A program made the translations under genes and the position numbers. 64,000 nucleotides of DNA, taken from the NCBI RefSeq assembly GCF_001421485.1, contig NZ_LMKK01000003.1, forward strand, positions 372,001 through 436,000, in the 5' to 3' direction. Shown here piece after piece: positions 42,395 to 46,686 of this stretch (position 1 is its first letter; the number at the start of each line of letters is the position of its first letter). The DNA is from Agreia sp. Leaf210 (GTDB lineage Bacteria > Actinomycetota > Actinomycetes > Actinomycetales > Microbacteriaceae). A model generated the notes under the pieces. That model had not been told where the DNA came from and ran no database searches. It saw nothing but the letters and a program-made list of their open reading frames with translations.

Positions 42395-43906
42395 ATGGAA
42401 AAAGCTGCGCAGTCTCGTGTTCTCGTCACCGGTGCGACAGGATACGTCGGCGGTCGCCTCGTTCCCCGTCTGATCGACGCCGGATTCCTGGTGCGCGTTC
42501 TGGTGCGCGATCCGGTCAAGCTCACAGACGTGCCCTGGGCGTCGGAGGTCGAGATCGTCACGGGCGATCTCGACGATGCGAGCACGCTGCCCGCGGCCAT
42601 GGAAGGCGTCGAGGTTCTCTACTATCTCGTGCACTCGATGGGCAAGCCCGGTCATTTCCGGGAACAAGAGGAAGCGGCTGCCGGCAATGTCGCGAAGGCG
42701 GCGAAGGACGCGGGTGTGAAGCGCATCGTGTACCTCGGGGGCCTGCACCCCGACAACGGTCGCCTCTCCGAGCATCTGGAGAGCCGGAAGCGCGTCGGAG
42801 ACATCCTCCTCGCCTCCGGCGTACCCACGGTCGCGCTGCAAGCAGGGGTCATCATCGGATCGGGTTCGACATCATTCGAGATGGTGCGCCACCTCACCGA
42901 CGTCCTTCCGTACATGCCCGCTCCGCGGTGGGTCCGCAATCGCATTCAGCCCATCGCGATCCGCGACGTGCTCTACTATCTGGTCCACTCGGCGACCGTG
43001 CCGTCCGATGTCAATCGCACCTTCGACATCGGCGGGCCCGATGTCCTGCGCTACGGGCAGATGATGAACGGTTACGCGCTCGAGGCCGGATTGAAACAGC
43101 GCCCGATCGCCGCGCTGCCCGTGATGACACCGTGGCTGGCGTCGCAGTGGGTGAACCTCGTCACACCGATCCCGCGCGCTCTCGCCGTGCCCATCATCGC
43201 CTCATTGCAATTCGACTGCGTCGCTCACGAAGACGACATCCGCACCCTCATTCCCGATCCCGATGGGGGGCTCACCTCCTACAGACGCGCCGTGCGGCTT
43301 GCTCTGGAGAAGGTCAAGACGGGAGCGGTCGAGACCAGCTGGCAGAACGCGGTCGTGCTTGGCGCGGCCAGCGACCCGCTGCCGTCGGACCCAGACTGGG
43401 CAGGCCACACCGTCTTTCTCGACATCAAGCAGCGTACGAGCAGCGCGGCCCCGTCTGAGCTGTGGAAGGTGATCGAGGGCATCGGCGGCGAGAATGGCTG
43501 GTATTCCTTCCCGCTCGCCTGGGCGGCGCGTGGATGGATGGACAAGCTCGTCGGTGGAGTAGGCCTGCGTCGCGGGCGCAGAAGCGCGACAGAGCTCCAC
43601 AATGGCGACGCGCTCGACTTCTGGCGGGTGGAGAGCATCGAACGAGGTTCGCTTCTCAGACTTCGGGCGGAGATGAAGGTTCCCGGCCTCGCCTGGCTCG
43701 AGATGCGGGCGACCCCCGCGAAAGACGGAGCGGGCTCGATCTACGACCAGAGGGCCGTCTTCTTTCCCCGCGGCCTTGGCGGGCGCCTCTATTGGTTCTC
43801 GATCCTCCCCTTCCACGGCGTCATTTTCACGGGAATGGCGAACCGCATCACCGCTGCGGCGGAGAAGGCGACGGCGGCCAAGCCGGAGCCGACACCCTCG
43901 TCGTGA
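42395..43906 (+). CDS. NAD(P)-binding SDR protein fused to DUF2867-like domain
   Basis: 503 residues in two parts. The first 290 are an atypical short-chain dehydrogenase/NmrA-like Rossmann domain: VLVTGATGYVGGRLVPRL, VEIVTGDLDD, VKRIVYLGGLH, and a third segment IQPIAIRDVLYYL. The last 160 (from about 340, FLDIKQRTSSAAPSELWKVIEGIGG to FHGVIFTGM) resemble the DUF2867 domain that is often fused to this type of SDR. Substrate unknown; proteins of this kind are usually annotated as NAD(P)H-binding. It stands alone with its own leaderless promoter. Confidence 0.85.
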   Translation: MEKAAQSRVLVTGATGYVGGRLVPRLIDAGFLVRVLVRDPVKLTDVPWASEVEIVTGDLDDASTLPAAMEGVEVLYYLVHSMGKPGHFREQEEAAAGNVAKAAKDAGVKRIVYLGGLHPDNGRLSEHLESRKRVGDILLASGVPTVALQAGVIIGSGSTSFEMVRHLTDVLPYMPAPRWVRNRIQPIAIRDVLYYLVHSATVPSDVNRTFDIGGPDVLRYGQMMNGYALEAGLKQRPIAALPVMTPWLASQWVNLVTPIPRALAVPIIASLQFDCVAHEDDIRTLIPDPDGGLTSYRRAVRLALEKVKTGAVETSWQNAVVLGAASDPLPSDPDWAGHTVFLDIKQRTSSAAPSELWKVIEGIGGENGWYSFPLAWAARGWMDKLVGGVGLRRGRRSATELHNGDALDFWRVESIERGSLLRLRAEMKVPGLAWLEMRATPAKDGAGSIYDQRAVFFPRGLGGRLYWFSILPFHGVIFTGMANRITAAAEKATAAKPEPTPSS

Positions 43907-43930: not shown

Positions 43931-44527
43931 GTGAGCACTAACGGAGGCATGATGACTGATAAGCCCGTGACCGCATTCGTCGGAGACAGCATTACCGCCG
44001 CAGGAGCCTGGCAGGACTGGTTCTCAGAGGTCGATGCGCGCAATTTCGGAGTCGACGGAGACACTACTGACGGATTGCTCGAGCGGCTGGACGCCGTCAT
44101 CGAGGCCGACCCCCAGACGATCGTGCTGCTTATCGGCACGAACGATCTGGCCGAGCGCCGAAGCATCGAGCGCATCGTTCGAAACATCGAGAGCGCGCTC
44201 GTTCGTCTGCACCAGGAGCTGCCGGATTCCCGGATCCTCCTGCAGTCCGTTCTGCCTCGTGGGCGGGAGTTCGCCGAGAACGTGAGGGCGATCAATCGCC
44301 ACATCTGGCAGTTTGCGGCGACCCAGCGGGTGCACTACCTCGACCTGTGGCCGGCGCTTGCCGATGCCGATGGCGAGTTAAATTCGGACTTCAGCGAGGA
44401 CCGACTCCATCTGAACGCGGCCGGGTACGATGTCTGGCTGTCCGAGCTGCGTCCCGCGCTCGAGAGAGTCAATGACCTTCCCCCCATGTCACGCCCGATC
44501 AGGCTGCCCGACCTCTCTGCGCAGTGA
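43931..44527 (+). CDS. SGNH/GDSL hydrolase
   Basis: 198-residue esterase/lipase of the SGNH type. Block I gives AFVGDSITAAG (catalytic Ser), block III LLIGTNDLA (oxyanion Asn), block V EDRLHLNAAGY (catalytic Asp and His, DxxH). No signal peptide is seen, so it is probably cytoplasmic; related bacterial enzymes deacetylate carbohydrates or act as lysophospholipases. It is 27 bases before the amine oxidase and may share its mRNA. An internal ATG at 43952 (MTDKPVT) is an alternative start. Confidence 0.85.
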   Translation: MSTNGGMMTDKPVTAFVGDSITAAGAWQDWFSEVDARNFGVDGDTTDGLLERLDAVIEADPQTIVLLIGTNDLAERRSIERIVRNIESALVRLHQELPDSRILLQSVLPRGREFAENVRAINRHIWQFAATQRVHYLDLWPALADADGELNSDFSEDRLHLNAAGYDVWLSELRPALERVNDLPPMSRPIRLPDLSAQ

Positions 44528-44554: not shown

Positions 44555-46036
44555 ATGAGCGTTGACCGTCGTACCTTTCTCGTGGGCGCGGCCACCGGTG
44601 CGGCCGTGCTCGCCCTCTCGGCGTGCGTCGGTCCGCCGCGTCCCGCGCCGACTTCGGCGACGCCCACCCCGGTGCCGACTCCGGGCACGATACCGACGCC
44701 AAATGGGTTCATCCGGTCGAACTGGGCATCCGACCCCTTCTCCTTGGGAAGCACCAGCTATATCCCCGCGGGCTCGTCGCCGGATTCGCGGGAGACCCTG
44801 GCCGAGAGCGTCTCCGACCGCATCTTCTTCGCCGGCGAGGCGACGAGCAGCGATTTCCCCGGCACCATGAACGGTGCCCAGACCTCGGGTGAGCGAGCGG
44901 CCGCAGACGTGCTGCGCCAGGCATCCGAGGGTGAGCGAATCGGCATCGTCGGAGCGGGACTCGCAGGGGCGGCCGCGGCCAAGGCGCTCGTCGCCGCGGG
45001 TTACGAGGTCGTCGTCTTCGAGGGGCGCGATCGCGTCGGCGGTCGGGTGGATGCTCATGGCCCCGGAGACTGGCCGTTGGCCGTCGATCTCGGTCCGAGC
45101 TTCGTTCGCGGCGTCGACTCGTCGACCCTCGTTGATCAGCTCGGAGACGTCGACGTCGACACGGTGCCCGTCGACGCCACATCGCGGGTCCAGCTCACTC
45201 CCGCATCCGAAACTGTCCCCGACAACGCGGTGGGCCGCGACGCGGTCGACGCCGCTGTCACCTGGGGAGCGGCTCAGTCGCGAGACCCGAGTCTTCGAGA
45301 ATCGCTTGCTGGGGCGAACGGAACGTCCGTCGACGTGTCGGTGGACGAGATCGGCGTCAGCCCGGCGGCTCGCGTCGCGGAGTATGTGGACAGAACAGTC
45401 GTGACGACGCTCGGCGCGGATGCTGACGAGCTCTCGACCTGGTACGGACTCGACGATGCGGACAAGGGCCAGGGAGGCGATGCCTTTGTGGTCGGTTCGG
45501 CTCAACAGGTGATCGTCGATGCGCTCGACGGTGCTGATGTCGCTCTCTCGACGCCGGTGCGGGAGGTATCGCTCGGTGACGACGCCGTGCGCCTGAAGAT
45601 GGCCACGGGGGAGTCCATCCGGGTCGATCGGGTGATCGTGACCGTGCCGATCGGCGTTCTGCAGTCAGATTCGATCACGTTCGATCCGCCGCTTCCGTTC
45701 AGCCACAGGACGGCCATCGCCGCCCTCGGGTCAGGCGCGGTCGAGAAGGTGTGGCTGCGCTATGACACACCGTTCTGGACGCAGGAGGCAGCTTTCTGGA
45801 GTCTCGTCGTTGACGCGCCGGCGCCGTCGGATTCGACTCCGACCCCTTCGGCCACGGCTTCGGCCATGGCAGCCCCGATGATCACCCAGTGGATCAACCT
45901 CATGCCCCTCACGGGCGACGCGGTACTGATCGGCCTGGTCGGTGGCAGCGCCGCCCGGGCTTTCGCCGATCTCGGCGACGACGAAGTGCGGGACATCGCC
46001 CTGGCCAGTCTTCAGCCCTTCGTGCCGACGACGTGA
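44555..46036 (+). CDS. Tat/lipobox flavin amine oxidase with circularly permuted domain order
   Basis: 493 residues. The N-terminus carries a twin-arginine signal (RRTFLVGAATGAAVLAL) ending in lipobox LSAC, Cys24, so the protein should be exported folded and lipid-anchored. After a Pro/Thr linker comes, at about 56-120, the block that normally closes flavin amine oxidases (NWASDPFSLGSTSYIP, then RIFFAGEATS and GAQTSGERAA). Only then does the FAD-binding start appear: IGIVGAGLAG (130-138 region), Glu156 and VGGR (161-164). The chain ends at ALASLQPFV, where the missing block would usually follow. This order is a circular permutation. Substrate could be a polyamine or another amine; it overlaps the convergent membrane protein gene by 25 bases. 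Confidence 0.85.
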   Translation: MSVDRRTFLVGAATGAAVLALSACVGPPRPAPTSATPTPVPTPGTIPTPNGFIRSNWASDPFSLGSTSYIPAGSSPDSRETLAESVSDRIFFAGEATSSDFPGTMNGAQTSGERAAADVLRQASEGERIGIVGAGLAGAAAAKALVAAGYEVVVFEGRDRVGGRVDAHGPGDWPLAVDLGPSFVRGVDSSTLVDQLGDVDVDTVPVDATSRVQLTPASETVPDNAVGRDAVDAAVTWGAAQSRDPSLRESLAGANGTSVDVSVDEIGVSPAARVAEYVDRTVVTTLGADADELSTWYGLDDADKGQGGDAFVVGSAQQVIVDALDGADVALSTPVREVSLGDDAVRLKMATGESIRVDRVIVTVPIGVLQSDSITFDPPLPFSHRTAIAALGSGAVEKVWLRYDTPFWTQEAAFWSLVVDAPAPSDSTPTPSATASAMAAPMITQWINLMPLTGDAVLIGLVGGSAARAFADLGDDEVRDIALASLQPFVPTT

Positions 46037-46686
46037 CCACGACGTCGCGTCAGCGCTATCAGCCCCGCCGCTAGCCCGACGATGACGAGGAGGATCGCTC
46101 CCGAGTAGGCGGCGAACTCGAGCGGTCCGGACACCTGACCGGGATCGAGGAAGAAGTAGGGATACCAGCCCACGATCGAGCCGCGGATCATCGTGAAACC
46201 GCCCCACACGAGGGGATAGATGAGCACCAGCCACACGCGGCGCCACGGGATCTTCGTGCGGCCCGGGGCGAAGATCCAGTCGATGATCACGTACGACGGG
46301 ATCCAGAAGTGCAGGAGCTGGCTCGACCACGGAACCACGATGCGGTAGTTGTAGTCTCCCGCCTGGCTGACGATGAGCCCGAAGACGATTCCGGAGATGA
46401 TCGTGAAGGTGGCCGTGAGCATCCGTGCCGTCATGAGCCAGCCCGGGTCGGTCGAGCGTCTGAACGAGAGCCACGCTCCTATACCCAGCACCACGACGCC
46501 GGCGGCGTTGCTCTGATTCGTGAAGTAGGTGAAGTAGTTGACCGTCGAGAAGCTGCTGAAGCCGAGGATGTACTGAAAGTCGCCGACCAGGGCGACGACG
46601 CCGACGATCGCCACCAAGGCACGCGCCACCCCGAAGGCCGTGCGTGTTTTCGTCTGGCCGCTGACCGGCCTCGTACGCAACCGCAC
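46012..46686 (-). CDS. six-helix membrane protein, Pr6Pr-like
   Basis: 224 residues and about six membrane helices. The sequence pattern (FSTVNYFTYFTNQSN in the first loop, WSSQLLHFWIPSYVIIDW, LVLIYPLVWGGFTMIRGSIVGWYPYFFLDP) matches the actinobacterial Pr6Pr/FAR-17a-like membrane family. Conserved His, Trp, Asn and Arg in the membrane could form a hydrolase or carrier site, but the function is not known. GTG start. Its 3' end overlaps that of the amine oxidase gene. Confidence 0.8.
   Translation of the reverse strand: MRLRTRPVSGQTKTRTAFGVARALVAIVGVVALVGDFQYILGFSSFSTVNYFTYFTNQSNAAGVVVLGIGAWLSFRRSTDPGWLMTARMLTATFTIISGIVFGLIVSQAGDYNYRIVVPWSSQLLHFWIPSYVIIDWIFAPGRTKIPWRRVWLVLIYPLVWGGFTMIRGSIVGWYPYFFLDPGQVSGPLEFAAYSGAILLVIVGLAAGLIALTRRRGHVVGTKG

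Follow-up and report, generated by a model that had tools for sequence, protein, structure and literature searches.

The gene cpAO of Agreia sp. Leaf210 encodes what sequence comparisons identify as a genuine natural circular permutant of the flavin amine oxidases, in which the block that closes the ordinary enzyme comes before the core, and this order is conserved and widespread in the phylum. The gene lies in a stretch of 64,000 nucleotides of contig NZ_LMKK01000003.1, analysed as a whole and called the window below. The full explanation that we propose with high confidence is that the product is a natural circular permutant, exported, lipid-anchored, linked to a membrane protein of the Pr6Pr family and probably of one origin. 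The permuted form of the amine oxidase is new within a known enzyme family.

Order of the two parts in cpAO

We compared the translated cpAO frame with the Pfam profile PF01593, of which the whole product is a member with 197.2 bits (gathering cut-off 19.8). The match is split: residues 45-125 align with profile positions 370-443 of 443 (66.7 bits, E-value 3.1e-18) and residues 126-493 with positions 1-366 (138.4 bits, E-value 5.7e-40), each against the same cut-off of 19.8, so positions 370-443 come before positions 1-366 and the canonical order of the parts is absent. The break falls at position 366/370 and leaves merely three profile positions missing from cpAO. Motif sites follow the same order, with W57, FFAGEAT at residues 91-97 and GAQTSG at 107-112 preceding GAGLAG at 133-138. 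In general motif terms, DPF..GS.SY ... FAGEAT ... GA..SG, the usual end of the chain, stands ahead of GxGxxG. The first-pass annotation, made from the letters alone, had set the closing block between the signal peptide and GAGLAG, and both the motif positions and the split profile matches bear this out. Against the PDB, a single-sequence search aligned query residues 45-119 with residues 699-773 of the LSD2 chain and query residues 308-487 with residues 524-692, i.e., with the core first in LSD2, and a search with a family profile again returned LSD2 in two stretches of swapped order (227 and 69 bits). The mapped parts are collected in Table 1.

Table 1. Mapped features of cpAO and neighbouring genes, in window coordinates
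Feature	Coordinates	Strand	Basis
cpAO, circularly permuted flavin amine oxidase gene	44555..46036	+	493 aa, open frame; Pfam and PDB searches
Tat motif RRTFLVG, residues 5-11	44567..44587	+	Sequence; Tat and lipobox pattern
Lipobox LSAC, residues 21-24	44615..44626	+	Sequence; lipidation of C24 inferred
Pro/Thr-rich tether, residues 25-46	44627..44692	+	Sequence
Closing block, residues 47-120 (PF01593 370-443), C-terminal in canonical enzymes	44693..44914	+	Pfam; LSD2 699-773
Short linker from old C-terminal helix to old N-terminal strand	44915..44935	+	AGE-GxGxxG spacing
Core, old N-terminal and middle parts, residues 126-493 (PF01593 1-366)	44930..46033	+	Pfam
GAGLAG dinucleotide-binding motif, residues 133-138	44951..44968	+	Sequence, Pfam
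Lys398, putative equivalent of the flavin-N5 lysine (LSD1 K661)	45746..45748	+	Alignment; role from parts of PMC12272882 and PMC3184146
Pr6Pr (NF038065) membrane-protein gene, convergent	46012..46686	-	112.4 bits; 3' ends overlap cpAO by 25 bp
NmrA/DUF2867 oxidoreductase gene, upstream of cpAO	42395..43903	+
SGNH/GDSL hydrolase gene, directly upstream of cpAO	43955..44524	+

Among the homologues classified below, AGE and GxGxxG stand 40 residues apart in 52 of 63 permuted members where the distance could be measured and 37-43 in the others, and the C-terminus lies at most 16 residues past the closing block in canonical proteins and at most 24 past the middle block in permuted ones. The near-constant spacing and the short tails indicate that the old ends are bridged by a short, nearly fixed linker and that the new ends are clean. 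The new termini sit just ahead of the segment that enters the closing block, and canonical proteins from viral contigs, divided at the corresponding site, give pieces that line up with the Agreia chain from one end to the other. In 25 aligned permuted members the GxGxxG glycines never vary, nor do AGE and the E, R and GGR in the strand and loop that come next after GxGxxG. The non-redundant set (65 permuted and 29 canonical proteins, 94 in all) contains no protein in which a second closing block was found. As far as these alignments go, cpAO appears to have the attributes of a one-gene circular permutant, with each segment present once, in swapped order and of the same ancestry. It is the single full copy in its genome, where two further matches span residues 125-165 and 106-183 only.

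Detection and classification of homologues

Homologues with the same order, which the first-pass annotation had proposed to look for, proved numerous. In a Microbacteriaceae sample, 131 of 398 genomes from 30 of 85 genera matched (E-value at most 1e-40), and at every match listed a single collinear alignment crossed the junction. Five named Agreia genomes, some of which may share species with genomes of the 398-genome sample, have the same part order. This repetition across Agreia and all family matches listed excludes chance and misassembly; an assembly rearrangement, named at the outset as an observation that would undo the permutation, or a frame error in this genome is thus next to impossible and already refuted.

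The order-level sample gave matches in 31 of 396 genomes (E-value at most 1e-25), eight of them outside Microbacteriaceae: four permuted (families f15 and f16), two canonical and two without classification. At class level 23 of 197 genomes matched, the 15 outside the order comprising four permuted (f37, f43, f48, f51) and 11 canonical. A search of a phylum sample with the junction only matched 34 of 396 genomes (E-value at most 1e-9), 11 of which are permuted, adding new permuted members from f68, f76, f78 and f117, plus one from f81 that is truncated; the remaining matches cover one half only or belong to proteins that are canonical or not classified. Besides Microbacteriaceae, ten more families of this phylum have the permuted order. 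A plasmid search (E-value up to 1e-20) returned one partial match, in Haloarcula, over residues 152-476 only. Relatives on viral contigs (L153, L155-L157) have the canonical order, and other viral matches were the same contigs repeated or not classified.

Proteins were classified with three profiles (closing, opening and middle block). The 89 permuted and 43 canonical ORF matches were reduced to 65 and 29 non-redundant proteins once duplicates in core sequence were removed, and matches without all three blocks were left out of the counts, including the truncated permuted member L113/L138 and several canonical-type loci. The permuted set leans to Microbacteriaceae (52 of 65) because its loci are the best matches of each search plus chosen others. 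L138 (4698-5567) is a permuted member of 290 residues with closing and opening blocks only, a broken gene or a frame error. A tandem candidate at L141 was rejected as a chance extension beyond a stop codon.

With both PF01593 halves present once each in swapped order and 65 non-redundant homologues sharing that order, the circular permutation first suspected from motif order is upheld as genuine.

Export signal and predicted membrane anchoring

The cpAO product starts MSVDRRTFLVG...LALSAC and continues into a Pro/Thr-rich stretch; a twin-arginine motif (RRTFL) and a lipobox cysteine (LSAC) make up the pattern of a Tat-exported lipoprotein. With a lenient pattern, Tat motif and lipobox stand ahead of the closing block in 52/52 Microbacteriaceae members and 7/13 other permuted members; the same lenient pattern, applied for comparison, occurs in 5/29 canonical proteins. 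The lipid-anchored export predicted by the first-pass annotation is sustained by this distribution, and we read the cpAO product as an exported, lipid-anchored FAD enzyme that would keep the amine oxidase fold. Outside Microbacteriaceae, L092 and L093 carry a Tat-like signal without a lipobox, and the four permuted members from f15 and f16 have no convincing signal peptide, two of them having been tagged as carrying twin arginines alone, on account of overlong frames. These four (L069-L072) form a possible cytosolic branch, with a joining segment that is longer by profile ends. A lipoprotein-like signal is also seen in the canonical relatives L017 and L153, so export may predate the permutation. 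One of them, L153 (2800-4206), is a canonical-order amine oxidase encoded by a contig that IMG/VR lists as viral.

Origin of the permuted order

We built a first tree from the parts set in a common order, with 41 of the 65 permuted rows and all 29 canonical ones (70 rows). It implies four order changes, with a main permuted clade of 32 rows (support 95/91), and constraining the permuted rows to one clade is not rejected (p-AU 0.106). In a second tree, from which eight distant or long canonical rows were dropped, there are three order changes and a single permuted clade costs 0.07 log-likelihood units (p-AU 0.494). A single origin of the permuted order is thus allowed by the tree tests. The four and three changes of the free trees make several origins possible, that is, independent permutations at the same site, favoured there because the old N- and C-termini adjoin; the f15/f16 members without a convincing signal peptide also branch apart from the exported ones. 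Against this stand the single clade, not rejected in either tree, and the identical cut site in the groups aligned, and we consider repeated permutation a serious but doubtful alternative. The permuted family probably has one origin.

Circular permutations are known to arise by duplication followed by trimming or by fission followed by fusion (PMC3320104, part of the text). Among the 94 classified proteins we found no duplicated or split intermediate that would fix the route, which leaves some room for a chimera, in which the closing block of a different amine oxidase gene was fused upstream of a truncated one. The closing block and the core, however, give similar rankings of the 29 canonical proteins (Spearman 0.76), which favours permutation over chimera, and the two co-vary among the 65 permuted members (Pearson 0.78 over 2080 pairs), making a chimera very improbable. 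The same ranking, taken with the lack of a second block in all 94 proteins, supports the original suggestion that cpAO is neither a fusion nor a duplication.

The Pr6Pr neighbour gene

The gene convergent with cpAO scores 112.4 bits against NF038065 (cut-off 30), which places its product in the Pr6Pr family. A simple hydropathy scan found five hydrophobic stretches in this product; most of 47 relatives have five or six, and six helices would be our guess. A convergent Pr6Pr homologue lies downstream of cpAO in 50 of the 52 non-redundant Microbacteriaceae loci (all but L086 and L087). Its distance from the cpAO frame is at most 212 bp in 46 of these 50 and never exceeds 1157 bp. No homologue turned up next to the canonical genes (0/29 loci) or next to permuted members outside Microbacteriaceae (0/13 loci), flanks being short at some loci, and the larger loci available for five outside-family members (L135-L137, L139, L140) contain no match to the window Pr6Pr. 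That none was seen at these 13 loci or at two of the 52 in the family means that Pr6Pr is not required by the permuted enzyme generally. When 11 loci from 11 genera were compared, only cpAO and Pr6Pr were common to all, other shared frames mostly overlying these two, and among the loci compared the flanking SDR (NmrA/DUF2867) and SGNH genes occur in this order within Agreia only.

Pr6Pr is present in 128 of 150 Microbacteriaceae genomes, so mere presence says little and it is adjacency that counts as evidence. Genomes with cpAO carry a mean of 2.43 Pr6Pr copies (46 genomes) versus 1.15 in those without (102 genomes; Mann-Whitney p 1e-13, kinship ignored); two unlisted genomes were excluded from this comparison, and G019, whose cpAO gene is divided between two contigs, was counted among the genomes without it. 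We then built one Pr6Pr tree from 20 chosen unlinked copies and 27 linked rows, the latter drawn from 25 of the 50 linked loci. Twenty-six linked rows (25 downstream and one upstream) group as one clade to the exclusion of the unlinked copies (SH-aLRT 99); monophyly of all 27 linked rows, upstream extras included, was rejected (p-AU 0.017). A second Pr6Pr gene also occurs upstream of cpAO in some genera (L014/L079, L038/L081, L039, L041, L042), and of these upstream copies L038b groups with the unlinked ones and the L014 copy falls in the linked clade.

One Thr and one His are shared by 90% or more of the linked copies and by the same proportion of the unlinked ones. ADTRP and AIG1 are multi-pass hydrolases that depend on Thr and His (PMC8123165, part of the text). 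Assignment of Pr6Pr as a threonine hydrolase of the AIG1/ADTRP kind found no support in Pfam, no family of which matched it at E-values up to 0.5. Pfam includes a model for the AIG1 group, and given the lack of any Pfam match the conserved Thr and His are a lead only towards AIG1/ADTRP likeness. A literature search for Pr6Pr by name found no paper.

Catalysis and the flavin-N5 lysine

Nearly all superfamily members have a lysine bridged by water to flavin N5 that is important for the reaction with O2 (PMC12272882, part of the text). When it is replaced, LSD1 loses its activity and flavin reduction in maize polyamine oxidase becomes 1400-fold slower (PMC3184146, part of the text). By alignment only, the equivalent residue in cpAO is K398. 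The lysine is present in 28/29 canonical versus 29/65 permuted proteins, and the site changes five times on the 70-row tree, with Thr as the most frequent substitute (18 rows). Since 36 of the 65 permuted members lack it, "oxidase" should not be assumed for the whole family. The presence of K398 suggests that the cpAO product can be an O2-using oxidase, an activity that we infer and call putative, and many relatives may pass electrons elsewhere. No cytochrome gene, the neighbour known beside NicA2, was found among the six cpAO neighbours scanned against Pfam.

The absence of the lysine from those 36 members could also mean that the family is degenerate and is losing its redox activity to become a binding or structural lipoprotein. 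This we hold to be quite improbable, as the lysine is kept in all seven rows of the window's genus and the GxGxxG glycines, E, R, GGR and AGE are invariant in the 25 members aligned.

Structure models

We ran AlphaFold2 with six sequences (the window protein and Agreia homologues), which gave a mean pLDDT of 33.8, and with 14 sequences, after adding canonical homologues from viral contigs cut into core and closing pieces, which gave a still weak model (mean pLDDT 54.7, pTM 0.53). Its better parts include the helix of the closing block with the next strand and helix (10-residue means of 70-91 over model residues 61-110). Amine oxidases were the top matches of this weak model both with Foldseek (E-value 1.6e-11, query TM 0.34, at pLDDT 54.7) and with VIA-align (Z up to 11.2, rmsd about 7 or more), among them LSD2, NicA2 and relatives of MAO. 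The weak model and its matches agree with a predicted amine oxidase fold, at a quality too low for contacts, for proof of the fold or for demonstrating that residues 47-120 complete the FAD domain.

Proposed mechanism and significance

In the explanation that we favour, the permuted chain would build the ordinary FAD fold, closing block included, and FAD would be loaded in the cytoplasm. The folded product would then be exported by Tat and lipidated at Cys24, and would sit on the outer face of the membrane with its tether entering at the closing block, versus at the GxGxxG strand in canonical exported relatives. There it would oxidise an amine or a similar C-N compound outside the membrane, with O2 as the likely acceptor in Agreia given the presence of Lys398, and the convergently encoded Pr6Pr membrane protein would work with it in Microbacteriaceae. 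The order probably arose once, the ancestor being a canonical amine oxidase that was already exported and the route either tandem duplication with trimming or fission with later fusion. A bolder version, in which the permuted members are a phylum-wide branch of single origin, the shifted tether lets the enzyme dock on Pr6Pr and lysine-less pairs act as a membrane dehydrogenase or lipid-modifying module instead of an oxidase that depends on O2, is in our estimate improbable.

To our knowledge, few large cofactor enzymes are circularly permuted in nature. The flavin amine oxidase superfamily includes drug targets (MAO, LSD1) and biocatalysts, and a natural family of permutants offers ready-made sequences for testing how the FAD fold tolerates new termini, and allows one to ask whether the order alters export or the way the chain folds around FAD, and which selection favours it. 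The close pairing of cpAO with Pr6Pr likewise gives a handle on this membrane-protein family. Annotation by Pfam name alone hides both the permuted order and the pairing.

Comparison with known systems

Targeted literature searches, with subscription journals mostly outside their scope, showed no permuted amine oxidase or flavoenzyme among the titles listed. In the text of review PMC3320104, words starting with oxidase or flav are absent, and the CIRPIN preprint (PMC12667903) lacks the words oxidase, flavin, FAD, oxidoreductase, amine and Rossmann. Two cases in PMC3320104, saposin/swaposin (permutation by duplication) and the transhydrogenases (by fission and fusion), resemble cpAO in the type of event, although for cpAO no intermediate was seen.

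NicA2, the best VIA-align match to the weak model (Z 11.2, rmsd 7.2, 240 residues), is a nicotine dehydrogenase of the amine oxidase family whose adjacently encoded partner is a cytochrome c (PMC12272882, part of the text). It differs from cpAO in that partner, as no cytochrome was found among six neighbours of cpAO, and in its canonical order, which is assumed from the family without a sequence alignment. The canonical L017 (Microbacteriaceae) and L153 (the IMG/VR contig) share with cpAO a twin-arginine signal, a Cys after the hydrophobic stretch and the oxidase parts, but have the normal order, with the tether entering at the GxGxxG strand, and no Pr6Pr gene was found beside L017. The PF01593 enzymes at large (LSD1/LSD2, spermine and polyamine oxidases, MAO A/B) share GxGxxG, GGR, AGE, the closing helix and the lysine with cpAO, which is set apart from them by its permuted order and lipoprotein signal and belongs to a permuted set in which 36 of 65 members lack that lysine.
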